Of a DNA stretch of 36,074 nucleotides, positions 7,726-31,437 are shown in pieces. Positions within the stretch are counted from its first letter, which is position 1. Each line of letters opens with the position of its first letter. The stretch is from IMG/VR virus record IMGVR_UViG_3300027793_000171, positions 1 to 36,074 of that record. One strand, given 5' to 3'. Under the pieces are notes generated by a model. It did no database searches. It was not told the origin of the DNA and was given only the letters and a program-made list of their open reading frames with translations. Origin of the DNA: a virus. A program made the position numbers and the translations under genes.

Positions 7726-8429
7726 CAGATAGGCTAAGGATAATAGTAGACGATATCCTCGTTACTATAAAACAAACATTTGATGACAAACAGGTAAGCC
7801 AGGCTCAAGTAGCTTATTGGGTTATTCTTGTTGGTAACCAGTTATTATCGCAACATAATGCTAAGAGAGATTCAGGTGCATTCCTAGCTTCATACGCAGG
7901 CGTGCCCGTGAAAAAAGCGTCAGTTAATTCAAATCCAAATATAATTAAGAACAGAAAGTATATCGAACTACCTGCTAATATATTTGATTACGATAGAGAC
8001 GGTGGTGTTGAATATATTGCATATTATAACCCTGACGAAAACTGCGCCCCTGAGTTTGCAAGAAAAACAATACAAAGAACATCCCCAGGAGAGCTTCAGT
8101 GGTTGAACTTAGATAAACATACTAAACCAAGCCCTAAAAATCCATACTGGTACAGAACAGGTGATATTATTTATCTAGTAGGTATTGAAACAGTTCCGGT
8201 AAAAGAAGTAGAGATAGGTATTTATCAAACAATTGACCCTCTTGAAAAAATAGATATTGATAAACCATTTTATTTTCCACAGGAATTACTGCATGTCTTA
8301 AAAAGACAAGTAACAGACCTAGCTAGATTTAGTTTTCTTTTTCAACAAGATAGATCTAATGACGGAAACGATGAAGCTGTTAAGCAAAATATCCCTAAAA
8401 TTGTATCTGTTAATGAACCACAGCAGTAA
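7722..8429 (+). CDS. second connector ring-type virion protein
   Basis: 235 residues, translationally coupled to the previous gene by an ATGA overlap. It begins with helix (RLRIIVDDILVTIKQTF) and VAYWVILVGNQLLSQHNAKR, continues with beta-rich sequence around residues 80-170, and closes with helix ELLHVLKRQVTDLARFSFLF. The alternation of N-terminal helices, a beta region and a C-terminal helical segment parallels the preceding gene and suggests a related ring subunit. Its stop is followed 5 bases later by an inserted homing endonuclease gene that separates it from the gp4-like ring gene. Confidence 0.62.
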   Translation: MTDRLRIIVDDILVTIKQTFDDKQVSQAQVAYWVILVGNQLLSQHNAKRDSGAFLASYAGVPVKKASVNSNPNIIKNRKYIELPANIFDYDRDGGVEYIAYYNPDENCAPEFARKTIQRTSPGELQWLNLDKHTKPSPKNPYWYRTGDIIYLVGIETVPVKEVEIGIYQTIDPLEKIDIDKPFYFPQELLHVLKRQVTDLARFSFLFQQDRSNDGNDEAVKQNIPKIVSVNEPQQ

Positions 8430-8434
8430 ATAAC

Positions 8435-9307
8435 ATGATTGTAGAAACAACTCATATATACACTTTATTATGCCCTAACACAATGCAAGTTAGATATGTT
8501 GGTAAGTCAAACAAGCCATTACAAAGATTTAATAGACATATAAATGAGAATGTTGTTAACAGAAAGAGTTCTTGGATAAAATCATTAAAATTAAATGGCT
8601 TACTACCAATATTAGAAATTATAGACGAAGTACCGTTATGCGATTGGGAGTTTTGGGAAAAACATTACATAAAACTTTATAAATCTTGTGGGGCTAAATT
8701 ATTAAACATGAATGATGGCGGACAAGGCGCTACACCAATACGTGAAACTATAGAAAAACAAAGAAGAATTAAGTTTGGTAAAAAAATAACTGAAGAAACA
8801 AGATTAAAATTAAGTATATCTAATAAAGGTAGAAAAATATCTGAAAAGCAGAAAAAACAACTAAGTGATGCAAGAAAAGGTAAACCTCTTCATCCAAATA
8901 CAATAAAAGGTGCTATAGAGAAAAGCTCTAAAAAAGTATCTTCTTATTCGCTTGACGGAATAAAAATAAAAACATATAATAGTATTTCCGATGCTTATAG
9001 AGATACAGGTGTATTTAAACATGTTATTATTAAAATATGTAAGAAAGTAAATTTTTATAATCAAAGTAAAGGTATTACTTTTAGATACGGAGATTTAGAT
9101 GTTATATCTGAATGTATTAAAAAGAGAAATATAGGTAAAACAGCAACATGTGTGGAGCAGTACGACTTAAATGGTAACTTTATAAGAGAATATAAATCAA
9201 TAAAAGAAGCTGCTGATGTAGTATGCAAAACATCTACTTCTATCTCTTCTGTTTGTAAGGGTATTAGAAAAACAAGTGCTGGGTTTATCTGGAAATATAA
9301 AAACTAA
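8435..9307 (+). CDS. GIY-YIG homing endonuclease with NUMOD3 and NUMOD1 repeats
   Basis: 290 residues. Residues 5-95 form a GIY-YIG nuclease domain: HIY (7-9) and RYVGKS (20-25) replace GIY/YIG, Arg31 and His35 in LQRFNRH have the spacing of the I-TevI active-site Arg and His, Glu75 in EFWEKHYI is the expected metal-binding glutamate, and Asn91/93 follow. Residues ~119-154 contain a basic NUMOD3-type segment (ISNKGRKISEKQKKQLSDAR). Two NUMOD1-like DNA-binding repeats follow at ~168-218 and ~238-288 (YSLDGIKIKTYNSISDA and YDLNGNFIREYKSIKEA). Such free-standing enzymes cut alleles lacking the gene and spread by repair. It interrupts the connector operon, is very Lys/Ile-rich, and needs no virion role. 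Confidence 0.93.
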   Translation: MIVETTHIYTLLCPNTMQVRYVGKSNKPLQRFNRHINENVVNRKSSWIKSLKLNGLLPILEIIDEVPLCDWEFWEKHYIKLYKSCGAKLLNMNDGGQGATPIRETIEKQRRIKFGKKITEETRLKLSISNKGRKISEKQKKQLSDARKGKPLHPNTIKGAIEKSSKKVSSYSLDGIKIKTYNSISDAYRDTGVFKHVIIKICKKVNFYNQSKGITFRYGDLDVISECIKKRNIGKTATCVEQYDLNGNFIREYKSIKEAADVVCKTSTSISSVCKGIRKTSAGFIWKYKN

Positions 9308-9315
9308 AAATAATA

Positions 9316-10125
9316 ATGAATACTAGCGAATATATATCTCCTGAAACAATAATCTTTAAAGCGGCTGCAATGGCCGGTGATAAAGACTATAAAATATTAC
9401 CAAAAGGATTTTACGTTTCTCTAATACAAGATGCTTTCAGAGAATTAAACATGGATTCATTCTTTGACGAGCAACGTGCTGATTTTGATTTTCCATACGA
9501 CAATTTAACACATAAACTTCCTTCAGGATGCTTCAATATACTAAATATATACATGTACTCTGGAGAGTCTTGCGATTTTAATGAAACAAAAAAGGTTTGG
9601 TGGAAAAGAAATTACTTTACTAGAGGAAGAGGATTTGTAGCTAATGATAAGGGTAATAATGGAAATGACCCATTCATGCAAAATCACACCGATATAAATG
9701 CCTTTGCAGATAAATCTACTATTAGGTATTTCGGAGGAGATGCAGTGAATAATGTATTATACTATAATGTTCAACTAGGAAACATCATGTTCAGCTCATC
9801 ATGTAGAAACGCAGGAACAAAAGTACACATTCATTACAGTGGCACCGGTGGTGATATCACAGAAGCTGAAATCATACCTGTATATTTCCAACAGGCTATT
9901 GAAGATTTTACAACAGAAGCAGCACTTAGATATAGAATTGCTAATGAACCATCCAACGCAAGAGTATGGATGCCATTACAACAAATGTATGAGCGTAGAC
10001 TTGATAAAAACGGATTTAACGGCTCTTGGGCAGTAGCTTTACAGAGAGTTAGAGATATGAATACATCTCAAAGAGATGAACTAGCAATATATATGAGAAG
10101 AGGTCAGTGGGGAAGCGGATTATAA
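9316..10125 (+). CDS. P22 gp4-like tail accessory ring protein
   Basis: 269 residues. N-terminal sequence PETIIFKAAAMAGDKDYKILPKG and GFYVSLIQDAFRELNMD, a beta-rich centre including LPSGCFNILNIYMYSG and NVLYYNVQLGNIMFSS, and the C-terminal helices and tail (ERRLDKNGF, RDELAIYMRRGQWGSG) match the pattern of crAss-like ring proteins related to the P22 head-closure protein gp4. This protein would seal the portal and form the platform for the muzzle encoded next. A smaller + frame inside it (9839-10036) is not a gene. The endonuclease gene separates it from the other ring genes. Confidence 0.8.
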   Translation: MNTSEYISPETIIFKAAAMAGDKDYKILPKGFYVSLIQDAFRELNMDSFFDEQRADFDFPYDNLTHKLPSGCFNILNIYMYSGESCDFNETKKVWWKRNYFTRGRGFVANDKGNNGNDPFMQNHTDINAFADKSTIRYFGGDAVNNVLYYNVQLGNIMFSSSCRNAGTKVHIHYSGTGGDITEAEIIPVYFQQAIEDFTTEAALRYRIANEPSNARVWMPLQQMYERRLDKNGFNGSWAVALQRVRDMNTSQRDELAIYMRRGQWGSGL

Positions 10126-10137
10126 TCTATTTACAAT

Positions 10138-13100
10138 ATGAACCAAGAAAATCAACCACATCATTTATCGACATATTCTAAAGGAGCAAACGTAGATGTT
10201 GATCCTGAATTAGCATTTTCACAACCTGCTACAGGAGTGTATTATGACGGCAGAAACTGCAGACCTGTTTCTATCGATGGTAATACCGGTGGGTTAGAAA
10301 AGATAAAAGGTGAGGTTATAATACATTCAAACACCACCTCTGCAATTGGTTATAAATGTATAGGGGCTAGAGCTGTTAATGACAGTAAAGTTGAGTTTTG
10401 GGTTCCAATAAACCCTGCTTTTCCAAGAATAGTTCGTATTAATGGAGTTATTGTATTGCAATCCATAAACTTTGATTTAAGAACTGATTATCCATTACAA
10501 ATTGATGTTAATGAGGATTTCGATAAAGGTGAAATTTTCATTACAGATAACAGGATACCTCCATTTATCTTTAATATTAAAGATATGTTGGACTCTCTTA
10601 TCTCTGACCCAAATAAATATTTCTCAAACTTCGACCCATTATTATATCAAATTAACTTACAGTCACCGCTAGACATACCTGTATTTATAGAAAACGTAAA
10701 CGTAGGTGGTGGAGGGGGATTACCTGTAGGTCATTATCAATATCAAATAAGATATTCTTCTAAGGAAGGTGATAGAACAGGTTGGTCCCAGGCTACTCCT
10801 ATGATTCCTATTACACAGTCTTTATCTAGTGAAAGTAGGATATATCCATGGGTAAAAACTTACGGTGGACCACCTAATCCATCATCAGTAACAGCCTTTG
10901 CTCCTAAATTAAGATTTAGAGTAACAAATATCTATAATTACGATTACATTGAGATAAAACGTATATCATACAATGCAGGCGCAGGCCTTGACTTTACTCC
11001 AAATGGAGTGATAGTAGCAAAGATAGAAATATCTCCAAATGAAATAAGTGTACGAGAATATGTAGACCCTCAAGAATCAAACACTAACATCGCACTATCT
11101 GCTGAAGATGAATCAAGAACACTCGTAGAAGTTGAATCAGCGAAATCAATTCGATATGTTGATAGACGATTAGTTTTAATGAACGTAAAATTAGCTTCTA
11201 AGGAAGCTGAATTGCAATTCAAAGAGATTAATGGTAAGCAAGGGTTTCCTGTAATAGACAAATTATATAAGGCAGGATATAACGATCCATGGAATCATAC
11301 TTATAAGAAATCAGCAATGAGTGGAGAGGTGTATGGTCTCGGTGTAGCTGTATACGATGGTGTTGGCACTAAAGGTTTTACTACAGAAATACCACAGTTA
11401 AAAAACTATCAATTTCCTAATAGACGCGATGCTATCTCATCAGAAACGAATGATTATTCTTTAAGAGGCACAGTAAAAGCAGCAGATTCTACGGTAGCAG
11501 CAGTAACTCAAACACATGAAGTATTTGACTTAGGAGACCCTACTTTTAAATCCAACGAGTGTGACTTTAAAAATATTGTACATCCAGGAAGAATAGCTGG
11601 TATAACAGGCACGAGAGGTGAACCAAAAGTAACAGAAGACTGCGATGAGACAAATGCAGAGATAGAAAACCACGGTGCTGACGTAACCGCTGCACTTGTA
11701 TCTGTTTCTTACCAACCATACACACCGGTGCGTCAAAATGACCCTGATGTTTCAGGTCATAACTATGTAACAACAATAAAAGTAGCTAAAGGAGATGTTG
11801 TTGGAGACCCAATCACAGGAGCACCAATACCGTCAACAGATGCTTATAATTTTAGACCAACTGGATTCTCTCCTGACTACTACGCAAAAGGATTAGTTGT
11901 TGCAGGTATACAAAACTTCCCTAAATGGGCAAAAGCATTCTCTATTGTTAGAACAAACGCAGCTAAGAGAGTATTATGTCAAGGTTTAGGGTATTATGCT
12001 TTAACTAAAGGTAAATTTAAAACATTAACAGACCAAAGCCTTGGAGGCAAAGAACAAAACAAATTCTGGTTCTTTTCTCCAGATATAGAAACAGGAATTG
12101 TATCTAGTGAAACAGTTAATGATATCATAGATAACCCACAAAATTACAAGTTACAATTCGTATCTCCATTAGGATTCTTTTCTGAGTTCTTTGCAGCGGA
12201 AGATAACATTGCTGTTCCGGGAAGAGATAGAGATAGATGTATTGACATGATATCATACGCAAGGATGCTTAGAGACCTTGCAGCAGATCCAAATAATCAG
12301 ATAAATCCATCAGAAGATGCTAACATGGGTATATCTGGAGGCGATGGCTATAACTATATCAGACATGATAAGTTTAGAAATCTAGGTCAAGACCCATTAA
12401 CCTTCGGTGCTCATTCTGATAAAGGAAACAGACTTGTAGATATCGCTCAAGTAAGAAGAGTTGCTGACGGAAGAGGTACATACATAGAGATTGAAACAAA
12501 TATCAATGTTTACGGAAAAGCTTCTGTTGGAGGTAATTCTGAATCTAACTTTGAAGACTCAGGACTTCAAGATTGGACAGAGCCATTATACATAATTAAT
12601 ATTGTAAGAGTTGGAGCGCAGATAAATGACCAAAATATCCAACAATATAAACAAACATCACACTATCAGAAATTAGAATCTATCATTGGTAGAACAACAG
12701 GCTTGGCCGGTGAGAAATTCCAACTTGTAGATGAAAGATGGGAAGACAGCATCCCTGCCCCTCGCTCTACAGACTTCGGTGCTAACGTAGATAGATACAT
12801 ATACATCAAAAAACCAGATGGTGTAGTTCAGAAATGGATTAACGTAACGTATAAAACATTAACTCAGAGAGCAACTATTTTATCAGACATCACGTCATTA
12901 GGTTCTTACAATGGTGATGTTTACGGAATGTATACACATACCAATATTGATAACTTAGATAGATTCTTTGAGTTACAATTTGATGTACCAGGTTCTGTGC
13001 CACCTGCAAATTCATTAGTCATTATAAAATACGACGACACAGCTCCGATTAGAGTATTCGGTTTCGATACCTATGTAGGAGAAACAATATTTGCGCCAAT

Positions 13101-17134: not shown

Positions 17135-20100
17135 ATGGAAGAAAATAATGTGAAAGACCCATTGGGGATATTAGGTAAAAAACCTACGCAGTCACAAGAA
17201 GACCCGTTGGGTATATTAAAAAAAAAAGTAGAGCCCACACCTTTACCGTCAAGTTCACAATTACCTTTGGAAGGTGGTACATCAGGATTAACAGCTACTC
17301 CTTCGGTATCCACAGACACTCCGACTGAAACGTACACTGTAAAACCAGGAACGTCATTTAATCCATTTGCAGAAGCACCTAAAATGGCTGGCCAAAAGAC
17401 AGCCCTTGGAAACACATTGACTCCATCTACCGAAATAAGACCTGTTACTACAACAGCAGGTTCAACCCCAACTGCTGAAAAAACAGTCAATATACCAAAA
17501 GAAAAAGAATCTACTTCTATGTTAGAAGATTTATCATCTTCTTTTTTAAGAGGTTCTTCTAGGTTAGGCTCTATGTTAGCCAAAACCCCTGCGTTTATTT
17601 ACGATATAGCTGCTTATCCACAAAATAAAATAGCTGAATTAACTGGATTAGATATATCAGCATCATCAGAAGAATTAGCTAATACACTTGGTTTACCAGA
17701 AAACGAAATAGCGAAATATTATGATAATGCAGTGGCTGAAAGTCAAAAAAAGCTAAATGAAAAATATGATAAAGGTATAACAGATTATTTTAAATCAGGA
17801 GACTACTCAAAAGCTTTTGGTTTATTGGCTAATTCTGTGGTAGAGAGTGCACCAATAAGCATTTCTTTAGCTTTAGGTAACGCTGCAGGATTAACAACAG
17901 CTCAATCAATAATGGGTGGAGGAGCCGTCTTTGCAGCAGATAAAAAATCAGAGTTAGATACTCAAAACCCAAATATGACTGAGTCTTCTAAAGTAGAAAA
18001 TGCTTTAGCTAATGGTCTTTTAGAGGGTGTGTTTGAGAATTTCGGTGTTACCAAATTAGGTAGCATGACTAAGGATATATTATTAAAAGAAGGTGTTGAA
18101 CAAGGTAAAGAGATAGTTAAAAATGGTTTTAAAGAAGTTTATTTACCTGTACTTAAAAAATATATTGGAACAACTGCAGAAGAAAGTATATCAGAAGCCG
18201 CTACTCAATACGCTCAAAATGCAGTGGATAAATTCTCCGGAGCAAAGCCAAATATAGATTTAATGGAAGGCGTATTAGACGCTGCTATAATTGGATTAGG
18301 TTCAGGCGTATCAATGTCTTCTGCTCCTGCAGCATTGGAATTATCAAGAACAAGGGACGGGTTTAAAAGAGCTGTTGAAATTCAAAGTGAAAAACAAGTA
18401 TTAGAAAATGACTTAGTATCAGAAGCTATACCTTTAGAGTCAAAACAAATACTTTCTGATAAACTAAAAGATTTAACATCCGAGGAAGCCGATTTAGTTA
18501 AATCAGAAAAGATAAAATATGAATCATTATCATCTGATCAGCAAAAATCAGTAGATGCTCTAATTGATAAAAAAAGAAAATTAATTGATGGAATTACAAA
18601 TATACCTTTATCAGAGGATAGTAAATCTATTCTTCAGAAAGATTTAGATAATATAGATAATGAAATTGAATCTATATATTCAAATCCAATGAAGGAACAA
18701 GAAGAAGCTTTAAACGAAGAAGAGTATCTAAAATCAATACAAAGCGAATTAGAGGCTAGAAAGAAACCTAAAGTAGAAATACCTGAATCTGAAAATAAAA
18801 TGCAGCGTGAGGGTTTATTTGAGGTCGATGACACTCAAAAAGCACAGCCTATCGAATTGCCTGTAGAAACAACTCAGGCCGCACCTGAAATCACTACCGA
18901 AGAAAAACCAGCTCAAGAAATTAAAAAAGAAGAACCTACCGTAAATGTAGACGATAAGATAGCTGAAGTTCAAAAGAAAATACAAGACAATAAGCAGAAT
19001 TATTTTAACGAGAAAATCTCTTATGTGGATTACAGGAAGAACAACGATGCTTTAGAAGCTGACTTAAAAAAATTAGAATCAGGAGAACAAGTAGAACAAC
19101 CTAAAATAGAAGAAAATGTCAATCAAGAAAACATCCAAGGGATACCAAGTGAAATCGGAATCGGGGAAAAACCTATCCAAGCCGAACCTATCGAAACCAC
19201 AAGCGCAGAAGAGACTACAGCAGGTGGAGTTCTTCAAGCACCAGAAGAAAAAGTAGTAGAACAAGTTGTAGCAGAAAAAAAACCTACTCCAACCAAAACA
19301 CAAGCTCAAATATCCGCTGAACAAACAATAGCTGAAGAAGAAGATACAGAACAGGATAATGTAACAGAAGACGCAGCTACTGTTAAAAAAATGGATGATG
19401 ACGTAGAAGTTTTAAAAGGATACAATAAAGAAAAATACCCTAATAAAACACCTGCTGAACTAAAAAAACTCATTGAAGATAAGTATGTAGGCGTACTAGC
19501 TAGAGCATATAAAGCTAAAATGGACGGTAAAATATCAGGTCCTACATACACAGCATATCGTAATGAGCTTAATAAAATGATGGAAGAAAAGCTCCGTCCT
19601 TTTACTAAAAAAGTAGCTACCGGAGCAGAGGGAGATAATATTAAAAAAGGAGAGTTAAAAGCTCAGGTAGTAGCCCTAGGAGAAATGGTAAAAGAAAAAT
19701 TACTTGGCGAGGGATATAAAAACCTAGCGTTATCATCAGCTATACCAGGAGCAAGCCCTGAAATTATTAATAAGTTAGTAGACCTAACAGTAAAAGGCGT
19801 TAATTTCGCTATCGATGCCGGTTATGGAGTTAGAGAAGCCACACAGATAGCTTTAGATAAAATAAAGACAAATCCCGTATATAAAAAACTATATGAAAGT
19901 GGAAACATTGATGAAACTAAGTTTAGAGACAGTGTAGAATCTGAGTTATCTAAAGCTAAAGCTCAACCACAGCCAAAAGCTCAGGAAAAGCAAGCTGAAG
20001 AGCAAGAAGCTGAAACAGGTAAAGAAGTAGAAGCGGCTGCCGAAACAGGAATGCCTGTGATTACTCAGGAAGATATAACTAAGGAATCAAAAGGTAAAAG

Positions 20101-20761
20101 AAAACAATCTCAACGAAGAGAAGAAAATACTACGTATGACGAGATAAATAAAATGATACCTCAAGAAGCTTCGTTTTATCAAAAGATGGATCAGGAGCAA
20201 ATCAGAGAAACCATTAGGACTTACATCAATGAATTAGAAGCTTCCAATATGATTATGGATGCAGCTAATTTAATGTTAGATGAAAACGCTAAGAAGCCAA
20301 TGCCTCCTGAAATGGTTCATACATTCAACTTGTTTTTAGTTGATAGAATGAAAACTTTAGCTAAAGAGGTAGATAACCCTACATTAAAGCAAGATTTATT
20401 AAACAAAGCTTCTAGATTAAGGGAGAATAATGATAAAAACACTACTACCATAGCAAAATCATTAGCTAATCTGTACATTCACACTAAAGAAATGATGTCT
20501 TCTCCGGAAGGCGTGCAAGCAGCCTCTGAGCAAAGACAGATAAATGCTATTGATAGCTATTTGAATAAAAAACAAAAAACAGCTTTGGAAAGTGTAGCAG
20601 AACCCGTAAATTCGCTTATTAATTCAGAAGAATTTGCTGAAGAAGTAAGAAAGGCTACTGAACAAAAATTAAAAGACATTGCTGAGAAAACGAAAGGTAA
20701 GGATTGGGTAAGCAAAGTAGATGCTTTCGATGATTTAATAACAACAACAGAAGATTGCTAA
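17135..20761 (+). CDS. large internal virion (cargo) protein candidate
   Basis: 1208 residues. The N-terminal ~125 residues are Pro/Thr/Ser-rich and carry two copies of DPLGIL-x-KK (residues 8-16 and 23-31). Residues ~125-410 are helical with two Gly/Ala-rich apolar stretches (ESAPISISLALGNAAGLTTA, about 240; AAIIGLGSGVSMSSAPAAL, about 385) that could insert into membranes. Residues ~410-720 are charged coiled coil and Glu/Pro/Gln-rich linker; 720-1208 is helical again and ends CGG-free at EDC. Amphipathic, partly membrane-active giant proteins behind the tail genes are typical of podovirus ejection proteins. No RNA polymerase DxDGD motif, protease or transglycosylase signature is visible. 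Confidence 0.62.
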   Translation: MEENNVKDPLGILGKKPTQSQEDPLGILKKKVEPTPLPSSSQLPLEGGTSGLTATPSVSTDTPTETYTVKPGTSFNPFAEAPKMAGQKTALGNTLTPSTEIRPVTTTAGSTPTAEKTVNIPKEKESTSMLEDLSSSFLRGSSRLGSMLAKTPAFIYDIAAYPQNKIAELTGLDISASSEELANTLGLPENEIAKYYDNAVAESQKKLNEKYDKGITDYFKSGDYSKAFGLLANSVVESAPISISLALGNAAGLTTAQSIMGGGAVFAADKKSELDTQNPNMTESSKVENALANGLLEGVFENFGVTKLGSMTKDILLKEGVEQGKEIVKNGFKEVYLPVLKKYIGTTAEESISEAATQYAQNAVDKFSGAKPNIDLMEGVLDAAIIGLGSGVSMSSAPAALELSRTRDGFKRAVEIQSEKQVLENDLVSEAIPLESKQILSDKLKDLTSEEADLVKSEKIKYESLSSDQQKSVDALIDKKRKLIDGITNIPLSEDSKSILQKDLDNIDNEIESIYSNPMKEQEEALNEEEYLKSIQSELEARKKPKVEIPESENKMQREGLFEVDDTQKAQPIELPVETTQAAPEITTEEKPAQEIKKEEPTVNVDDKIAEVQKKIQDNKQNYFNEKISYVDYRKNNDALEADLKKLESGEQVEQPKIEENVNQENIQGIPSEIGIGEKPIQAEPIETTSAEETTAGGVLQAPEEKVVEQVVAEKKPTPTKTQAQISAEQTIAEEEDTEQDNVTEDAATVKKMDDDVEVLKGYNKEKYPNKTPAELKKLIEDKYVGVLARAYKAKMDGKISGPTYTAYRNELNKMMEEKLRPFTKKVATGAEGDNIKKGELKAQVVALGEMVKEKLLGEGYKNLALSSAIPGASPEIINKLVDLTVKGVNFAIDAGYGVREATQIALDKIKTNPVYKKLYESGNIDETKFRDSVESELSKAKAQPQPKAQEKQAEEQEAETGKEVEAAAETGMPVITQEDITKESKGKRKQSQRREENTTYDEINKMIPQEASFYQKMDQEQIRETIRTYINELEASNMIMDAANLMLDENAKKPMPPEMVHTFNLFLVDRMKTLAKEVDNPTLKQDLLNKASRLRENNDKNTTTIAKSLANLYIHTKEMMSSPEGVQAASEQRQINAIDSYLNKKQKTALESVAEPVNSLINSEEFAEEVRKATEQKLKDIAEKTKGKDWVSKVDAFDDLITTTEDC

Positions 20762-20767
20762 AATAAT

Positions 20768-23473
20768 ATGAGTGTAAAATGTAATATACAAGACAGTCAG
20801 GAAGCTTATAACCATGGTGTAAAATCATTTAAAGAGGCATTTCTTCAAACACAAGGTGACACTACTAAATCATTGAAATATGCTATGAATGAAGTGAAGG
20901 CTAAATTTCCAAATTTAGACTTTGACCCAAAATCATTCACCGATCCAATCATAGAAAAAGGAAAAAAAAGCGGAGTGATACCAGCTAGCTACACCTTTGA
21001 TAAAAAAGTAAAAACTCCTTCTATAGAGAAAGGTAAGGAAAACATAGAGGCGGCCAAAAAGAAGTACGAGGAAAAAATAAAAGACATAACTGATAAGGTA
21101 GAAGGAGCTAATAAAGAACAAAAAGCATCTATGGCTAGGTCTCTAGCTGAGAAAGCAATCCAAACAGGATTTATCAACGATGCTGACGTTAAAAAAGCAT
21201 TTGCTGAAGCAGTGAGGTTGCCGGTAGAGGTATCCGAAGAGTTCGATGCTGCCGTAGAAAAATTACAGGTAGCGAATAGAGAGTTAGATACCATAGATGT
21301 GGAAATGTCAAAGCTTCGAAATGAAGTAAAAGACCTAAAAAAAGAAGGTAAGTTTACCGAAGAGCAAAATAAATCTTACGACGAAAAACTAAGAGCCTTA
21401 GTAGATAAAAAGAAGAAAGCCGAGGACAACGCTACAAAAGCAGCATACGACCTTAACGTACTGATGCCGCCAAGCTCATTTTGGTATTACGACATGGTAT
21501 CAGCAGCAAACCTTAACCTGATGAAAGGTGTATCATTGATAAACAACTTAACAGGTGGTTTATCAGACACGGCAATACGGTTGATGGGTAATTTCTCATC
21601 AGAGGTATTATCTCTAGGCGTAAACTCTATTATACGTAAACAAAATCCATTACCATTCGGAAAAAGAGCATTAGGGTCTATACAGCAGCGTAAAAAGATA
21701 GCTATGAAAATAGCATCTACTCTGAAGTATGGTAATGCAGACATCAGAGACTTAGCTCCTACAAACACGTTAGATGCTGTAGCTAAGCTAAGACAAAAAA
21801 TAGAAAACACACCAACTGCTAAACTTAAAAAGATGGCAGGTTTTATATTAAGAGTACATCCGGATGCCGTATCAAGAGTTCTTGGAGCTACGGATGCCGC
21901 CTTTAACACTGCTATATATTTCGGTGAGTTAAACAGTATTGCTGAATCTAAAGGATTGAAAGGATTCGATAAAACAGATTTCATAGAAAATCCAGACGCA
22001 GCATCAAAAGAATTTGCTAAGAAAAAAGCAGACGAGGCTACATTTAAAGGCGAGTTTATATTCGGTAACAACGTAGTAAAAGCACTTAAAGTAAATCCTT
22101 ACAGTCTTCAAAAAATGCTAACAGAAGAGCAGGGTGTTCCTCCTCTAGCAGCAAAATTATTAGTAGGAACATTACATTCAATAAGTGTCGGTGTAATGCC
22201 ATTCGTTAAAACACCGATAGCCATCTTTAACTCAGCGCAGAAACTATTACTACCTGAATACGCTATGCTGAGTGGAGCGTTAAAAGCCTCAAGGGAGAAA
22301 GACCCTAATATGAGGCAGAGGATTGTATACGAAGCTACTGGTAATTATGTAGCTGGAACAGCATTAAGATACGCAGCCATAAACATGATCGCTAATGGAT
22401 TAATGTCAGGCGCTTATGGAGATGATGATTTCGACGCAGCAGATACAACAGAGAAAGTAATGGGTGGTCCGAATAGAATAAACATCTCCGCATTCATGAG
22501 AGGAATAGCGTTTCAAGGATGGTCATCGAAAAAAGGAGATACTATCATAGAATTAAAAACAATGGGTGTTCCGGGTGTTGTTCTCGGAGCATACGCACAT
22601 GCTTTCCATGGACAAAACAATAAACAGAAAATGTCCAATGAGATTATGTCTGTCGAGCAGGATATAAAACTACTCGGAGCTAGTTTCCAATCATTCGTAG
22701 ACAATACCTTCCTGTCAGGTACAAATCAACTTTTACAGGCATTAACAGATAAAGAAGGTCATAAATGGAATAAATTCACAATAAACCTTGCCTCTGTATT
22801 ATTAGGAGGCGCAGTACCATCAACAGCTCAAACATTCTCTACGCAAATGGATGAGAATGTAAAACAACAGTACAATAAGGACCTAGATTACGGTGAAAAT
22901 TTAGCAAATATACTAGGTTATAAATTCGCCTTCCAATCCAAAGATTTAAAAAACAAATACTTCAACTTAGCGGCAGAAAACGAGGCTTTAAAGAAAAAGA
23001 AATACGTGTTTTTTGATAACTACTTAGGAAGGGTAATCGCAAATAACGTTGATTTCCTTAAAATGTCAGAATTAGATAAGGATACGCCTGAATACAAGCT
23101 TTACGAATATACTCAAAGCCTTAAAGAGGAGAATAGACCTAAACTATTCCCTAGTGCCGTAGAAAAGAATGTAAACGTTTCATACACTGAAAGGGTAAAC
23201 GGATTAAGGACAACTAAGTCAGAAAAAGTGAAGTTAACAAATGAAGAGCATGAATATTACATGAAACAAGCTTCTCAATACAGACTTATGCTAGTAACCC
23301 CTTACATCATGCAGGAAAAGTTCAAAGATATCCCTTACGATGAGAAAATAAAAGAAATGGCTAAATTGTACGAGTCAGGAAAAGACATGGCTAAAAAAGA
23401 CCTTATGTCTCAATTCCCAGACCTTACAAAAAGAGTTAAGACGGAAAAAGTAGAAGATGAATCTGATTTATAA
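20768..23473 (+). CDS. large internal virion (cargo/ejection) protein candidate
   Basis: 901 residues. The N-terminal ~215 residues are hydrophilic with coiled coils (about 80-110 and 165-215). Residues ~220-700 are an Ala/Gly-rich helical domain with apolar stretches around 461-488 (LLVGTLHSISVGVMPFVK) and 528-548 (YVAGTALRYAAINMIANG). The C-terminal ~200 residues are charged. The overall look is like the large helical proteins that podoviruses eject to cross the envelope, and the middle resembles regions of large polyvalent phage proteins, though that resemblance is weak. It is the last gene of the continuous block that starts at 6961; a new promoter follows it. Confidence 0.6.
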   Translation: MSVKCNIQDSQEAYNHGVKSFKEAFLQTQGDTTKSLKYAMNEVKAKFPNLDFDPKSFTDPIIEKGKKSGVIPASYTFDKKVKTPSIEKGKENIEAAKKKYEEKIKDITDKVEGANKEQKASMARSLAEKAIQTGFINDADVKKAFAEAVRLPVEVSEEFDAAVEKLQVANRELDTIDVEMSKLRNEVKDLKKEGKFTEEQNKSYDEKLRALVDKKKKAEDNATKAAYDLNVLMPPSSFWYYDMVSAANLNLMKGVSLINNLTGGLSDTAIRLMGNFSSEVLSLGVNSIIRKQNPLPFGKRALGSIQQRKKIAMKIASTLKYGNADIRDLAPTNTLDAVAKLRQKIENTPTAKLKKMAGFILRVHPDAVSRVLGATDAAFNTAIYFGELNSIAESKGLKGFDKTDFIENPDAASKEFAKKKADEATFKGEFIFGNNVVKALKVNPYSLQKMLTEEQGVPPLAAKLLVGTLHSISVGVMPFVKTPIAIFNSAQKLLLPEYAMLSGALKASREKDPNMRQRIVYEATGNYVAGTALRYAAINMIANGLMSGAYGDDDFDAADTTEKVMGGPNRINISAFMRGIAFQGWSSKKGDTIIELKTMGVPGVVLGAYAHAFHGQNNKQKMSNEIMSVEQDIKLLGASFQSFVDNTFLSGTNQLLQALTDKEGHKWNKFTINLASVLLGGAVPSTAQTFSTQMDENVKQQYNKDLDYGENLANILGYKFAFQSKDLKNKYFNLAAENEALKKKKYVFFDNYLGRVIANNVDFLKMSELDKDTPEYKLYEYTQSLKEENRPKLFPSAVEKNVNVSYTERVNGLRTTKSEKVKLTNEEHEYYMKQASQYRLMLVTPYIMQEKFKDIPYDEKIKEMAKLYESGKDMAKKDLMSQFPDLTKRVKTEKVEDESDL

Positions 23474-23525: not shown

Positions 23526-24080
23526 ATGAGTTTACAGCTTAAAATATCTGCAATAGAAGAAAATAAATCATTTGTCGTTACAGATTGTACCGGTAAATAC
23601 TCTTCTTCAAATCAAGGAGGCTTTGGAGCACCAAACATCCAAACGTCAGATATAGAAACATCAATATTATTCATCACCACTCCAGATAAAACAGAGTTTC
23701 AAATAAATGTATACCCAGACTTTCCAAATAAAGACGGTATCGCATACGAGATACTTCCATACATGTTAAACATGCAGGAAATAGAAAGCGGTGAGTATAA
23801 TTTAAAATTAGTGATTACAGGCACAGATAAGAAAGGAGTTAAATTTACGAAAACAGCATACCATACTCAGTTTATGACAAAAACAGTATCATGCTGCATT
23901 GATAAAATTATCTCAAAAAACATCGGAACCACAGACAAACTTAAAAAACAAGAAATGATTGAGTTGAACGACTTACTTAAATCTCTTGAGTACAGTATTG
24001 ACTGTGGAAGAATGAATAGAGCTACTAAAATAGTAGATCTACTTAAAGAAACATGTTCTTGTTGTGATTGTAAAAACTAA
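23526..24080 (+). CDS. small virion-type protein with C-terminal cysteine cluster
   Basis: 184 residues. The first ~110 residues are beta-rich (ISAIEENKSFVVTDCTG, ETSILFITTPDKTEFQINVY) and look like a small immunoglobulin-type or jelly-roll domain. The C-terminal ~60 residues are helical and end in a cysteine cluster, CSCCDC at residues 177-182, two residues before the stop. Two further Cys (VSCCIDK) lie near residue 122. There is no signal peptide. It opens a run of six cysteine-marked genes and has its own leaderless-type promoter. I do not recognise a named family; an appendage or adaptor protein is inferred. Confidence 0.7.
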   Translation: MSLQLKISAIEENKSFVVTDCTGKYSSSNQGGFGAPNIQTSDIETSILFITTPDKTEFQINVYPDFPNKDGIAYEILPYMLNMQEIESGEYNLKLVITGTDKKGVKFTKTAYHTQFMTKTVSCCIDKIISKNIGTTDKLKKQEMIELNDLLKSLEYSIDCGRMNRATKIVDLLKETCSCCDCKN

Positions 24081-24108
24081 TTAAAAATTATCATAAAAAC
24101 TAATTAAA

Positions 24109-24597
24109 ATGAACTGCGAAAAGAAAACATTTTGCCAAAAGGTAGTTTCTAAAATAGGGATAAAAGGCCCTCAAGGCCCTCGTGGTCATCAAGGTATCCA
24201 AGGCCTTCAAGGCCTTCAAGGTCCTCAAGGTTCTCAAGGTATCCAAGGCCCTCAAGGTCCTCAAGGTCAAGGCGGCAACTTTGATGTCACAATAACTCAA
24301 CCTGATCCAGAAGGATTACCTTTTGTTTTAGGTACTTCTATAACAGGAGGTACAGCCCCTTATACTTATGAATGGTCTATTGCTGATACTTTAGCAGGAT
24401 CTGGACGCAATGCTTTCGGTATATCAGGAGCATCTAACTTATCTACTGTTACTTGGGCAATCAATGAGCCAAATTCGTTTTTTGTAGCAGCAATATCTGG
24501 AGCTGGAGGGGTTTCTTTAATGAAAGTTAAAGTTACTGATGCTAATGGTGCGATAGCCAAAGATACTTTTCTTCTTATTGAGGTAACAGCAGCATAA
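24109..24597 (+). CDS. collagen-like protein with PKD/SprB-like domain
   Basis: 162 residues. Residues 1-16 are a short head with Cys3 and Cys9. Residues 17-52 are twelve uninterrupted Gly-X-Y triplets, mostly GPQ, GIQ and GLQ, which would form a trimeric collagen-like rod. Residues ~57-160 are a beta-sandwich with [12 protein letters not shown] and [13 protein letters not shown], the pattern of PKD or SprB-type repeats common in Bacteroidetes surface proteins. In phages such rods are tail-fibre or head-fibre shafts with a terminal binding domain. The gene precedes a tail-collar protein. The antisense frame across the repeat is a by-product of the 9-base periodicity. Confidence 0.85.
24157..24267 (+). 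repeat. 9-base repeat array encoding Gly-X-Gln triplets
   Basis: Twelve tandem 9-base units encode the collagen-like segment. Units such as CAAGGCCCT, CAAGGTCCT, CAAGGCCTT and CAAGGTATC recur with mostly synonymous or conservative changes. Arrays like this expand and contract by slippage, so the rod length may vary between relatives. Confidence 0.9.
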
Positions 24598-24623
24598 TTA
24601 TAACCTAATAAAATATATGAAAT

Positions 24624-25466
24624 ATGTGCAAAAATAAAAAATGCACCGGAAACTGCTATAAATGTTCAAGCGACAATCAGTATGACAACATTATAGTTCA
24701 ATTACAATCACAAGTAGATGCTCTTACAGAAAGCATTAAGCCGTTTATCTGCGGACACCCTATCTTACTAATAGAGTCAGCTTCGGATATCGCTCAATTC
24801 GACACTGATGGTTACGGTGTAGGATGTTGGGAAGGATGGGCTATCTGTAACGGTCAAGCGTATATGAACCCTCAAACGAAGGTAAATTTCACCACTCCGA
24901 ACTTTACTGATAGATTTATCGTTCAAGCAGGTGGTTCATATTCAGTTGACGACACAGGAGGTTCAGACACAGTTGCGTTAACAGTAAATGAATTACCTGT
25001 ACATACACATGGTATTACTGATAATGGGCATACACACAATTTAACAGACACAGGGCACAATCACCCTGTAGATGACCCTGGCCATGGCCATGCTGGATCA
25101 GGAGGAAGTCATACGCATACATTCACTACAAGTACAATCGGTGGTCACGAACACTCAACTGGTGTTATTGGAATTACTGACGGTGGAGGAGGAACAGGTG
25201 CCAACGTAAGAACAAGCTCTACAGCAAGTGGAAATTCTACAAGTACAGACGGAGCTCATAGTCACAGTGGAACAACAGACCCTTCTTCAGCAGCAGTGAC
25301 TGTAAATTCATCGTTTACAGGTGTTCAAACACAAAATGCCTTTATTGGAATAACAGAAACAGACTCTAATACAACCGGAATAACAGTAGATGATGCAGGG
25401 AATGGAGATGCTCACGAAAACAGACCTCCTTATTTCGCTGCTCTTTATGTAATAAAAATGTGGTAA
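24624..25466 (+). CDS. tail collar domain protein (short tail fibre) with HxH array
   Basis: 280 residues. Residues 1-14 carry a Cys knot-like motif (Cys2, 7, 11, 14). A short coiled coil follows (about 22-38), then a phage tail-collar domain (about 43-110) with GWAICNGQAY and FTTPNFTDRFIVQAGG. Residues 127-214 contain seven HxH motifs at 127, 136, 145, 154, 163, 175 and 212, the first five spaced exactly nine residues. The C-terminus ENRPPYFAALYVIKMW is the typical ending of this family. In T4 gp37 the same HxH type coordinates a line of iron ions in the receptor-binding needle; a trimeric metal-stabilised tip is expected here. The ATG at 24617 is out of frame. Confidence 0.88.
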   Translation: MCKNKKCTGNCYKCSSDNQYDNIIVQLQSQVDALTESIKPFICGHPILLIESASDIAQFDTDGYGVGCWEGWAICNGQAYMNPQTKVNFTTPNFTDRFIVQAGGSYSVDDTGGSDTVALTVNELPVHTHGITDNGHTHNLTDTGHNHPVDDPGHGHAGSGGSHTHTFTTSTIGGHEHSTGVIGITDGGGGTGANVRTSSTASGNSTSTDGAHSHSGTTDPSSAAVTVNSSFTGVQTQNAFIGITETDSNTTGITVDDAGNGDAHENRPPYFAALYVIKMW

Positions 25467-25838
25467 ATGAAGTGTTTAGACGAAATAATATGCGAAGCAA
25501 AATGCTGTTCTACGGAATATGCAGCTAAATTTGCGGAAGATAAGACATTTGGTAGAGATACTGATAACTCAGACTACTTTATGTTAATGATGTATATTGA
25601 TGTTTTACAAAGAAACACGCCCTCATTTATTAAGCTTAAAGCAAAAGTTACTACATGTCCTAAAAAAATATCATTTTCTTCTTTGAAGAAAGAAAATAAT
25701 AAACTATTTTTGGACATCCGAGAAGCCGTAAAATGCGTTGACGTAAAATTAGATGCCTGTCTATCCGATGCTGAGTTATGTAAGATTATAGAGGAAATAA
25801 AAGTACTTTGTAATCAATGCGAATGTAATTGCAATTAA
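25467..25838 (+). CDS. small cysteine-tailed protein, unknown function
   Basis: 123 residues, starting on the base after the tail-collar stop codon. It is mostly helical, without signal or membrane segment. The N-terminus (CLDEIICEAKCCSTEY) has four Cys and the C-terminus ends CNQCECNC (residues 115-122), one residue before the stop. The placement and C-terminal cluster mirror the 184-residue protein at 23526. It may be a chaperone or adaptor for the collar protein, since small helical partners often follow fibre genes; this is inference only. Confidence 0.72.
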   Translation: MKCLDEIICEAKCCSTEYAAKFAEDKTFGRDTDNSDYFMLMMYIDVLQRNTPSFIKLKAKVTTCPKKISFSSLKKENNKLFLDIREAVKCVDVKLDACLSDAELCKIIEEIKVLCNQCECNCN

Positions 25839-25851
25839 AAAATCATATAAA

Positions 25852-26193
25852 ATGCCTTACGAAGATAATCAAACATACGCTAAATATTTAAAGAAAAAAT
25901 GTTTAGAAGAATCTGCAGGTTGCGGAGAATGCAACGACTGTAATGACTGCTCAGAAGGATGCGAGGAAAAATGTTCTTGCTGCCCTGCTGGATTAGTAGC
26001 TGTTTATGACGCTGAAGGAAAACATCAAGGATGTTTAACGCCTGCCGACGCTGAGCTATTCCATGATAATACATTTACATGTCAATCAGGATATGTTAAG
26101 TTGTACAATAACTCAACAAACGAGTTCCTTGGATGTGTATCTGAATCAGAGTTTGCAGCATTGTATTCTACAGTAAATACTATAGTAACATAA
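25852..26193 (+). CDS. cysteine-rich small virion-type protein
   Basis: 113 residues with nine cysteines between residues 17 and 44 (CGECNDCNDC followed by CEEKCSCC), an unusually dense set in a phage cytoplasmic protein. The second half holds two short repeats of similar shape: AVYDAEGKHQGCLTP and KLYNNSTNEFLGCVSE, each a beta hairpin with one Cys followed by an acidic helix (ADAELF, SEFAAL). The Cys part could bind zinc or an iron-sulphur cofactor, or be disulphide-bonded in the virion. No family name is recognised. It lies between the collar and Big2 genes. Confidence 0.72.
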   Translation: MPYEDNQTYAKYLKKKCLEESAGCGECNDCNDCSEGCEEKCSCCPAGLVAVYDAEGKHQGCLTPADAELFHDNTFTCQSGYVKLYNNSTNEFLGCVSESEFAALYSTVNTIVT

Positions 26194-26208
26194 AATTAAT
26201 TAAAGAAA

Positions 26209-26826
26209 ATGGGAGAAATTTCAATAGCATCAGAAGCTACAATGTTAGCAAGCTTACCTGCAGCAGGTACGGTAAAATTATTCATCAATACTGATAAAAA
26301 CAACGTGCTATACTACATTGATAGCGCTGGAAATATCAGAATGTATAGCTACGGAGACACTTCACTAGAAGACTGTTGTTCTTGCGAAATCGCAAAACAA
26401 TGGATGGATAGAGTAACATGTGCGTTAAATTCAGGAATGATTACAGCTACAGACTTCGGGACATTAATAAATTCCGGATTAACCGTGTCTGCAACAGAAA
26501 CAACAGACCCTGAAACAGGAGCCAAAACATGCACTGTAAACGTAGGCCCTCAAACACCAGCGCAAATTGCTGTAACAGGATTATCAATTACAGTACCTGC
26601 AACTACTGAAGCAGCGTTAGGAATAGGAGCTTCTCTACAGATAGTAGCTTCAATAACACCTCCTACAGCTCCTCAAGGAATTGTATGGGTATCTTCAGAT
26701 CCTACTATCGCATTAGTTACTAACACAGGCCTTGCTGTAGGCATTTCTGCAGGAACAGCTACTGTGTATGCATTCTCTGCCGCAAATCCTTCTTATTCAG
26801 ATTCAGTAAATATTGTTGTGTCTTAG
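26209..26826 (+). CDS. virion-type protein with Big2-like domain
   Basis: 205 residues. The N-terminal half begins with a beta region (FINTDKNNVLYYIDSAGN, about 25-42) of the sort seen in phage fibre or collar proteins. It is followed by DCCSCEIAKQWMDRVTC (55-71) with four Cys. The C-terminal ~85 residues are a bacterial Ig-like group 2 domain: ITVPATT, LQIVASITPPTA, GIVWVSSDPTIALVTNTGL, AGTATVYAFS. Such domains decorate virions and help weak binding to cell-surface glycans. It ends with TAG; reading through would add only three residues. Last gene of the cysteine block. Confidence 0.82.
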   Translation: MGEISIASEATMLASLPAAGTVKLFINTDKNNVLYYIDSAGNIRMYSYGDTSLEDCCSCEIAKQWMDRVTCALNSGMITATDFGTLINSGLTVSATETTDPETGAKTCTVNVGPQTPAQIAVTGLSITVPATTEAALGIGASLQIVASITPPTAPQGIVWVSSDPTIALVTNTGLAVGISAGTATVYAFSAANPSYSDSVNIVVS

Positions 26827-30207: not shown

Positions 30208-31437
30208 ATGCCAATTACATCATCAGAAGAAACAAGTGAAATATCTTTTAAAGATAACGCGGTAGACGCTTTTGCTAGGCTTAGAATGTCTGAGCCTGAA
30301 ACTATCTTTGATAGCAAACAAATATCAGACAATCAGCCATTATTCTGGGATGACCAACAAGTAAGTGGTAGTGGCACTAGCTCAACTTATAACACTAATC
30401 AGGCTAGCACTACATTATCTGTAGGTAATTTAACAGCAGGTAAAAGGGTTAAACAGACGTATAGAAGATTTAACTATCAGCCGGGTAAATCAATGTTGAT
30501 TAACAAGACGTTTAAGCTAGAAACCAGAAAAATAGGCATTAGGATAAAAGACGGTTATTTTGATGATAAGAATGGATTATTCTTTTACACACATCCTGAT
30601 TCTTATGGTTTTGGAGTTAGGACTTTTACAAGCGGCTCTGCATTTGACAATCTAATACCTCAAGCAGATTGGAATATTGATAAGTTAAATGGATTAGGTT
30701 CAAGCGGTGTTGATATTACTCAATATAAAAAAGCATTATTCTTTATTGATTTTGAATGGTTGGGTGTGGGAATTATAGCCTTTGGATTTTTCTTCAATAG
30801 AAGACCTGTTTATTGTCATTTTTATGACACTACTAAAGTTGATGACTTAGTTACAATGTCTGTTCCTAACTTACCTTGTAGAACTGAAATCGAAAATGAT
30901 GGTACAGGCGTGACAGCAAGTACAACTCAGATATGTGCCACAGTTATTTCAGAGGGCGGTTTAAAAGACACTGGCTATGGCTTTGGTATATCTAGGGGTG
31001 TAGCTCCATTGGTTACTTTAAACAATACAAGTATCTATCCATTGTTTGCTATTCGTTTAAATAGTAATTACTTACATTCTACTATCAAACTGTTAAACTT
31101 TAATGTAAACTGTACATCAACAGCTACTTATAATTGGTATTTACTTTTAAATCCAACGGTAACAGGAACAGCTTTATCGTTTACGCAAGTGGCTAATACA
31201 GCTATAGATGCTCAGATAAATACAACTAATGCAACAACTGTAAGCGGTGGCACTATCTTATTAACAGGTACAGCATCACAAACAAATGAGAGTGGTATTA
31301 ACATTGTTAATGCTACTGACTTTGCTATGGGTAGTAGTATTGCTGGAGTTGCTGATATAGTAGTGTTAGCTGTGCAAAGAGCAACTGGAACAACTGAAAC
31401 ATTTTACGGTTCATTAAATTGGAGGGAACAACAATAA
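30208..31437 (+). CDS. virion structural protein of the widespread DAFARLR family
   Basis: 409 residues. The N-terminal 170 residues contain a run of motifs I recognise from virion proteins of many unrelated tailed phages, including marine ones: DAFARLRMSEPETIFDSKQ, NQPLFWDDQQVSGSGTSS and YRRFNYQPGKSMLI. Later motifs of the same family follow: DWNIDKLNG, FIDFEWLGVGIIAFGF. The C-terminal ~150 residues are Thr/Asn-rich beta sequence. The family's precise position in the virion is not known to me; it occurs with fibre genes. Start MPITSSEE resembles other fibre genes here. Confidence 0.78.
   Translation: MPITSSEETSEISFKDNAVDAFARLRMSEPETIFDSKQISDNQPLFWDDQQVSGSGTSSTYNTNQASTTLSVGNLTAGKRVKQTYRRFNYQPGKSMLINKTFKLETRKIGIRIKDGYFDDKNGLFFYTHPDSYGFGVRTFTSGSAFDNLIPQADWNIDKLNGLGSSGVDITQYKKALFFIDFEWLGVGIIAFGFFFNRRPVYCHFYDTTKVDDLVTMSVPNLPCRTEIENDGTGVTASTTQICATVISEGGLKDTGYGFGISRGVAPLVTLNNTSIYPLFAIRLNSNYLHSTIKLLNFNVNCTSTATYNWYLLLNPTVTGTALSFTQVANTAIDAQINTTNATTVSGGTILLTGTASQTNESGINIVNATDFAMGSSIAGVADIVVLAVQRATGTTETFYGSLNWREQQ

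Follow-up and report, generated by a model that had tools for sequence, protein, structure and literature searches.

A six-gene block in a phage record probably encodes a cysteine-rich form of the tail-fibre docking hub known from crAss001

We analysed a 36,074-base virus record (IMG/VR IMGVR_UViG_3300027793_000171; this whole stretch is the window in what follows), in which six adjacent small genes, here called genes 1 to 6, encode proteins with clustered cysteines (Table 1). The window also encodes a portal (phrog_156), a capsid protein at 4782-6056 that matches the Pfam family SU10_MCP, large virion proteins, an amidase and more virion proteins. An earlier note on this DNA had singled out the six genes and proposed that their cysteine clusters are a shared docking code within an undescribed assembly system. 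All six open reading frames (ORFs) lie where the note had put them, with the cysteines that it described.

Together the six ORFs hold 46 cysteines in 1,067 residues (4.3%), compared with 74 in 10,629 residues (0.7%) for the 29 other ORFs of the window, none of which (0/29) has at least three cysteines within 10 residues. Five genes with three cysteines per 10 residues among six adjacent ones form a run that occurs only once in the window. Shuffles of each protein's own residues reached the observed clustering in 84 (gene 1), 540 (gene 2), 395 (gene 3), 1,325 (gene 4), 1,663 (gene 5) and 217 (gene 6) cases per 5,000, and the anomaly therefore lies mainly in cysteine content and in the placement of the clusters, less in clustering beyond content (genes 4 and 5). 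The view that the clusters sit at ends or in linkers holds for the C-terminal tails of genes 1 and 4, the N-terminal tags of genes 2 and 3 and the linker of gene 6. It fails for a CC in the first helix of gene 1, for a second, N-terminal group in gene 4 (C3/9/13/14), which is part of the first helix, and for gene 5, where the cluster fills the N-terminal third of the protein. The two large virion genes before the block lack clusters, as had been noted; they carry one cysteine each, at C1208 of 1208 residues (17135-20761) and at C5 of 901 (20768-23473).

Table 1. Genes and cysteine-rich segments of the block, in window coordinates.
Feature	Position	Strand	Basis
Gene 1, tail hub protein A (THA)-like, FN3/Ig (immunoglobulin)-like beta domain and three-helix domain	23526..24080	+	model, PDB matches, family
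Gene 1, C-terminal cysteine tail CSCCDC (C177/179/180/182 of 184 residues)	24054..24071	+	low-confidence (flexible) in model; predicted local distance difference test (pLDDT) 49 for the last block of residues
Gene 2, collagen-like fibre protein, N-terminal cysteine tag followed by GXY (glycine-X-Y) repeats	24109..24597	+	PF01391, 29.3 bits, above cutoff
Gene 2, N-terminal cysteine tag (C3, C9)	24115..24135	+	cysteine positions; kept in L063
Gene 3, tail-collar/receptor-binding type fibre protein	24624..25466	+	phrog_8469 tail fiber, E 1.6e-30
Gene 3, N-terminal cysteine tag (C2/7/11/14)	24627..24665	+	cysteine positions; re-spaced in L063
Gene 4, small hub partner, probable paralogue of the gene 1 helical domain, possible tail hub protein B (THB)	25467..25838	+	hhalign, model
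Gene 4, C-terminal cysteine tail CNQCECNC (C115/118/120/122 of 123 residues), C..C.C pattern as in gene 1	25809..25832	+	cysteine positions
Gene 5, small protein, nine cysteines in residues 17-44, two GC[LV] repeats (by eye)	25852..26193	+	relatives in L063, L169
Gene 6, Big_2 Ig-like structural protein, DCCSC linker (C56/57/59)	26209..26826	+	PF02368, 40.4 bits, above cutoff

Gene 1 was modelled with AlphaFold (pLDDT 89), and the VIA-align comparison of the model placed 7qol_W (Z 9.3, 154 aligned residues) and 7qoj_G (Z 9.1, 160 aligned residues) as the top two of 1000 chains. Both matches span the two domains, at a root-mean-square deviation of 5.4-5.6, and reproduce the arrangement of a beta-sandwich and a helical C-terminal part seen in gp38. 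The chain 7qoj_G is tail hub protein A, gp38, of phage crAss001, and the same sequence is present in 7qol; the remaining PDB rows shown for gene 1 are mainly FN3 domain matches. Matches in BFVD include structural proteins of the Cellulophaga phages phi17:2 (E 1.5e-6) and phi14:2 (E 1.1e-5), and a hidden Markov model (HMM) of the gene 1 family finds phi14:2 gp098 (E 6.7e-11; confirmed by tandem mass spectrometry according to its record) and phi17:2 gp058 (E 8.3e-10; virion structural by similarity). Both phages are in culture, and the annotation of both proteins is virion structural. In phi17:2 the genes adjoining gp058, gp055-057, also carry cysteines, gp057 near its C-terminus and gp055 and gp056 near their N-termini, and gp058 differs from gene 1 in having only 3 cysteines.

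It is well supported that gene 1 is a homologue of crAss001 gp38 (PDB 7qoj, 7qol, 8ckb), with which it shares the two-domain fold and a CxC near the C-terminus. The two are 13% identical in the structural alignment, and the tail of gene 1 has more cysteines. The alignment stops at gp38 residues 201-204, short of C211 and C213, and the gp38 tail may therefore be unresolved in the structure. Counterparts of gp38 have a CxC within their last 12 residues in 7/7 crassvirus or related records used. For gp38 and its smaller partner gp39, counterparts were chosen by position and annotation, and the counts cover seven of nine fetched records, since cr108_1 has no gene of the right size there and phi14:2 entered the hub-family count instead. 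The hubs of crAss-type relatives have a similar gene position. Locus L008 carries a capsid gene of the crAss001 gp32 type (E 4.8e-102) and, directly before its hub gene, a weak match to the auxiliary capsid protein gp36 (E 0.0045, 27 residues), so that the crAss001 order of gp36, endonuclease gene and gp38 recurs there but for the endonuclease gene. Genes of the gp32, gp33, gp34 or gp36 type were found in the fetched stretch of 42/79 groups of hub loci. The shared role would be fibre docking, which we assign to gene 1 from this comparison: as published, each crAss001 hub consists of two gp38 and one gp39 (THA2-THB), 12 hubs surround the tail, each grips the trimeric fibre gp22 by gp22 residues 1-26, and disulphides stabilise the hubs and the barrel (PMC10172136, Nature 2023).

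The relatives of gene 1 were collected through two scans of IMG/VR with degenerate DNA patterns, which were written for a TGxYxxxNxGGxGxPN-type motif. The scans gave at least 189 loci, and 184 of the 189 matches listed are hub relatives; five chance matches (L057, L060, L074, L101 and L181) were dropped. Removal of 21 incomplete hub genes left 163 complete ones in 93 groups (<60% identity), including the window's own contig (L011). The tree, the census of crAss-type genes, the GXY counts and the gene 4 and profile analyses are based on the first 79 groups or fewer. Members of the family share the beta domain, a three-helix domain that contains CC and, mostly, a C-terminal cysteine cluster, and 23 aligned members are 16-42% identical to gene 1 of the window. 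Pfam, PHROGs and NCBIfam give the family no name (24 members searched), the library matches being one to phrog_21413 (function unknown), four stray weak Pfam rows and one stray NCBIfam row. A stricter pattern, applied to bacterial and archaeal genomes (84,980 species), yielded one hub locus, L078. Its hub gene (1375-1941) lies on a contig labelled as part of a Rickettsiaceae genome bin, which is possibly a mis-binned phage contig.

We defined a tail as at least two cysteines in the last 12 residues of a hub protein and a tag as at least two cysteines in the first 20 residues of a neighbouring protein. A tail is present in 79/93 non-redundant hub proteins. Tags were found in 57/88 first downstream genes, 24/73 second, 5/62 third and 1/48 fourth, and in 0/277 genes up to six positions upstream. 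The rate for the first downstream gene is alike in crAss-type loci (29/41) and in the others (20/33) of the first 79 groups; this total of 49/74 counts genes starting within 200 bases, and a count that has no such limit and skips incomplete genes of <60 residues gives 48/74. Genes 2 and 3 resemble phage collagen-like and collar-type tail fibres in domain content (PF01391, phrog_8469) and differ from them by the added tag, and the position and layout of gene 2 recur in many loci. Collagen repeats follow the tag in 28/49 tagged first-downstream proteins, and the remainder continue with sequences of other kinds; the tag is therefore more than a feature of collagen-like proteins. Tail-less hubs have a tag-less neighbour in 10/14 cases and tailed hubs a tagged one in 54/74 (Fisher p 0.004). 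In L090, L092 and L145 the pair is free of cysteines. Predictions fixed before the second scan were compared with the 79 listed loci of that scan: tails, expected in at least 80%, were found in 44/52; tags, expected in at least 60%, fell narrowly short with 28/48 (58%); the control, expected below 5%, gave 17/379 (4.5%); and tail-less hubs stood beside tag-less genes in 7/8 cases, with L098 as the exception. The 40 loci of the second scan that were examined last form 14 new groups, with tails in 12/14 and tags in 9/14. Some tag-less neighbours of tailed hubs, for example that of L037, have an N-terminus that looks helical by eye.

Conservation of the cysteines and co-occurrence of the genes, on both of which the idea of a shared code depends, are borne out by two diverged phages. 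The 75,288-base contig L063 keeps the complete set of six, in unchanged order and at 36-54% identity to those of the window, and cysteines are kept at 38/46 sites, compared with 413/971 identical positions for all other residues. The cysteines of gene 1 (8/8) and gene 6 (5/5) are kept completely, and those of gene 4 (10/12) and gene 5 (10/12; counterpart 54% identical) nearly so. Both cysteines of gene 2 align with cysteines in its L063 counterpart, which has five. Gene 3 is the weak case: 3/7 cysteines align, and the tag is present but re-spaced in a counterpart that is 48% identical. In the 62,867-base contig L169, five of the six genes are found in order, the hub being followed by counterparts of genes 4, 5 and 6; a gene 3 counterpart was not found there, and the fibre genes encode two cysteine-tagged collagen proteins and two collagen proteins with a single N-terminal cysteine. 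Cysteines are kept less strictly in L169 (gene 1 5/8, gene 5 7/12). Its gene 5 counterpart is longer (E 1.1e-22), and its gene 4 includes the N-terminal part only if read from a GTG start. The gene 6 counterpart of L169 was not reported by phmmer and was recognised only when the two linker sequences were compared directly (21/73 identical). Searches with two-row alignments of genes 4 and 5 found L063 and a contig near-identical to the window and missed L169, though it is among the pattern matches. Because genes 5 and 6 accompany the hub in each of the three phages in which they occur (the window, L063 and L169), they may be additional appendage subunits. The four collagen-like fibre genes of L169 stand in a row between the hub and gene 4 (8276-10440), and the last two both start with MSDDCKIPxGPKGD, as if duplicated. 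Among the large genes upstream of hubs, L063 shares the cysteine layout of the window, one gene ending in ...DC and the next beginning with MSKC. A cysteine lies within the first 8 residues in 5/15 large upstream genes (at least 800 residues, own start), and an upstream ORF of L169 (1,141 residues) has no such cysteine.

Gene 4 belongs to a family of small helical proteins, mostly the second or third gene after the hub, that an iterated profile built from 13 hand-picked starters detects in 34/79 groups at E <1e-3. In many members the first helix contains a CC, and CL[ST]xEE...C..C.C lies close to the end. Comparison of this family with the helical domain of the hub by hhalign gave a score of 29.1 (probability 84%), which 0/40 shuffles reached (maximum 12.6), and by these profiles gene 4 and the helical domain of gene 1 are probably paralogous. 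Gene 1 ends in IVDLLKETCSCCDC(KN) and gene 4 in IIEEIKVLCNQCEC(NCN), with a C..C.C pattern in common. The number of cysteines in gene 4 does not track that in the hub (Spearman 0.25, p 0.15, 35 pairs). The model of gene 4 has three helices and a beta insert (pLDDT 85); its PDB rows were led by bitter-taste and other G-protein-coupled receptors and Hsp70, which we took as helical-bundle noise. Comparisons of gene 4 with the gp38 helical domain (29/40 shuffles reach the score) and of the hub helical domain with gp39 (6/40) were negative. Tail hub protein B of crAss001, gp39, is like gene 4 a small helical protein encoded near the hub gene, with conserved cysteines (C-x5-C in 7/7 records used) and a weak profile similarity to the gene 4 family, whose profile finds the DAC15 counterpart of gp39 (E 0.003) in a set of 7 sequences. 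Unlike gp39, gene 4 has a C-terminal cysteine tail and is placed after fibre genes; homology is not established, and equating the two is only suggestive.

The block is a cysteine-rich form of a known tail-fibre docking hub that is common to crAss-type and other phages. It is a new form because the crAss001 fibre gp22 docks without N-terminal cysteines, whereas the fibres beside gene 1 carry tags; cysteine docking of the kind proposed here was not found in print in the open-access literature searched. In the reading that we favour, with a probability of about 0.62, the block encodes the docking hub together with its fibres, and the cysteine tails of genes 1 and 4 bind the tags of genes 2 and 3. 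The data show that the block is conserved, that gene 1 has the hub fold and that tails and tags recur at set positions; direct contact between tails and tags, its chemistry (disulphide or metal) and the role of gene 4 as THB are what we infer. Genes 1 and 4 would build a collar hub in which gene 4 is the smaller subunit in the role of THB, and the flexible C..C.C tails of both would present cysteines at a socket that the trimeric fibres (genes 2 and 3) would enter by their N-terminal tags. Disulphides would lock the joint after assembly, once the virion is outside the reducing cell; alternatively, a shared metal site would bridge tails and tags. With two hub chains and a single gene 4 chain, three tails would face the three tags, an arrangement that is attractive and unproven. 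Genes 5 and 6 would probably be further subunits of the appendage, gene 6 likely as an appendage or decoration subunit; gene 5 has no match in PHROGs or Pfam. Of the proposals in the earlier note, the shared docking code is well supported for genes 1-4, the pairing of tails and tags recurring across 93 non-redundant loci. Given the homology between the hub and crAss001 tail hub protein A, the assembly system is not wholly undescribed; the full set occurs in few known phages.

Several observations weigh against this docking model. The profile comparison of the gene 1 family with gp38 is weak, with an hhalign probability of 9% over the full length and 35% for the helical domain, although 0/40 shuffles reach either score; that of gene 4 with gp39 is also weak (0.7%, 0/40 shuffles), and no PDB row clearly matches the gene 4 model, gp39 not being among those listed. 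The association of tails with tags is absent in the last 14 groups (p 1.0). In 20/74 cases the gene next to a tailed hub has fewer than two cysteines in its first 20 residues, and 4/14 tail-less hubs adjoin tagged genes. The cysteine-rich hub of L078 stands beside a tag-less collagen protein, and phi14:2 differs from the window in that the gene after gp098, which has a cysteine cluster, lacks a tag. Because a tree of 75 hubs offers at most 7 independent pairs, only 1 of them on supported branches, co-evolution of tail and tag is not established. In crAss001 the first cysteine of gp22 is at residue 228, far from the docking residues, and cysteines are therefore not needed for docking in general. 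Finally, the data do not establish the window phage as a crassvirus, and its SU10_MCP-type capsid points elsewhere. Gene 1 is preceded by the 901-residue gene and lies about 17 kb after the capsid gene, and the Crassvirales order of auxiliary capsid gp36 followed by the hub is absent; because the hub gene is not in the run of capsid genes after gp36, we do not file the phage under Crassvirales. The combination of this capsid with a crAss-like hub protein suggests that tail modules are common to phages of different capsid types.

The tags might merely staple together the three chains of the fibre itself, by forming a cystine knot from which the collagen triple helix starts, while hub tails bond intramolecularly or bind metal and no tail touches a tag. 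Interchain cystine knots are known in collagens, a GXY run occurs in 32/76 first downstream genes, 28 of them tagged (79-group set), and many hub proteins have cysteines in helix loops that are able to pair with the tail. We nevertheless consider this explanation unlikely, as a run of five GXY is missing from 21/49 tagged first-downstream proteins, gene 3 of the window is of the collar type and yet tagged, tags adjoin the hub gene and are absent from all 277 upstream genes, and losses of tail and tag tend to coincide, though not in the last 14 loci.

It is improbable that the clusters are metal-storage or redox features (zinc, iron-sulphur or copper at the contact with the host) with no part in docking. 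The tags depend on position relative to the hub gene, the homologous crAss001 hub has published disulphides (PMC10172136), and no metal-binding family gave a convincing match, one of the 24 hubs searched having a weak FhuF 2Fe-2S row (E 0.033); the CxC and CxxC spacing is nevertheless compatible with metal binding, as are the nine cysteines within 28 residues of gene 5. We give very little credence to chance or host-linked composition, that is, to a set of small cysteine-rich proteins with no common role, even though clustering beyond content is unremarkable in genes 4 and 5 (1,325 and 1,663 of 5,000 shuffles), because L063 keeps cysteines at a far higher rate than other residues (38/46 versus 413/971) and the clusters recur at fixed termini in 93 non-redundant loci.

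A wider form of the docking model, which we offer tentatively and with the odds somewhat against it, is a universal cysteine plug and socket. Two THA-like chains and one gene-4-type chain, alike in their helical domain and C..C.C tail, would form a pseudo-threefold socket whose three cysteine tails take the three tags of any trimeric fibre, and phages of different capsid types would swap fibres through it, in place of the cysteine-free docking of crAss001. The host-binding ends of phages change fast, and how one tail takes many fibres is a long-standing question. If the proposal is true, many uncultured phages would share a simple and general solution, in which a short cysteine tag on diverse fibres is matched by a cysteine tail on a conserved hub. 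The analysis describes a protein family without a name in Pfam or NCBIfam and ties the virion structure of crAss001 to phages of another capsid type, and fibre genes in metagenomes become findable as the genes after a TGxYxxxNxGGxGxPN-type hub gene. The two cultured phages phi14:2 and phi17:2 make the docking idea testable.

Close relatives of the window are few. No DNA match to the 7.5 kb around the block was found among 50,697 phage records, and a tblastn search of the same records with genes 1 and 4, the portal and two further hub proteins gave no match either; the link to isolates was therefore made through capsid genes and profiles. By tblastn, the window capsid protein had 5 weak matches listed, no crassvirus among them. 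Searches for close relatives of genes 1 and 4, the portal and the 901-residue protein gave only the near-identical IMG/VR contig (L007; 50,340 bases), which has one mismatch to the window over the 16.5 kb compared. It continues past the right end of the window with an integrase-family gene and with RNase H, SNF2-type helicase, sliding clamp and DnaB-type genes. The integrase-family gene (1201-2037 of L007; PF00589, E 2.2e-36) may indicate a temperate phage or a recombination function. Within the window, a GIY-YIG/NUMOD homing endonuclease gene (8435-9307) is flanked by two virion genes, and the ORF at 30208-31437 encodes a phrog_1645 virion protein whose relatives occur in 169 phage records, chiefly of cyanophages; the listed rows show about 27-36% identity.

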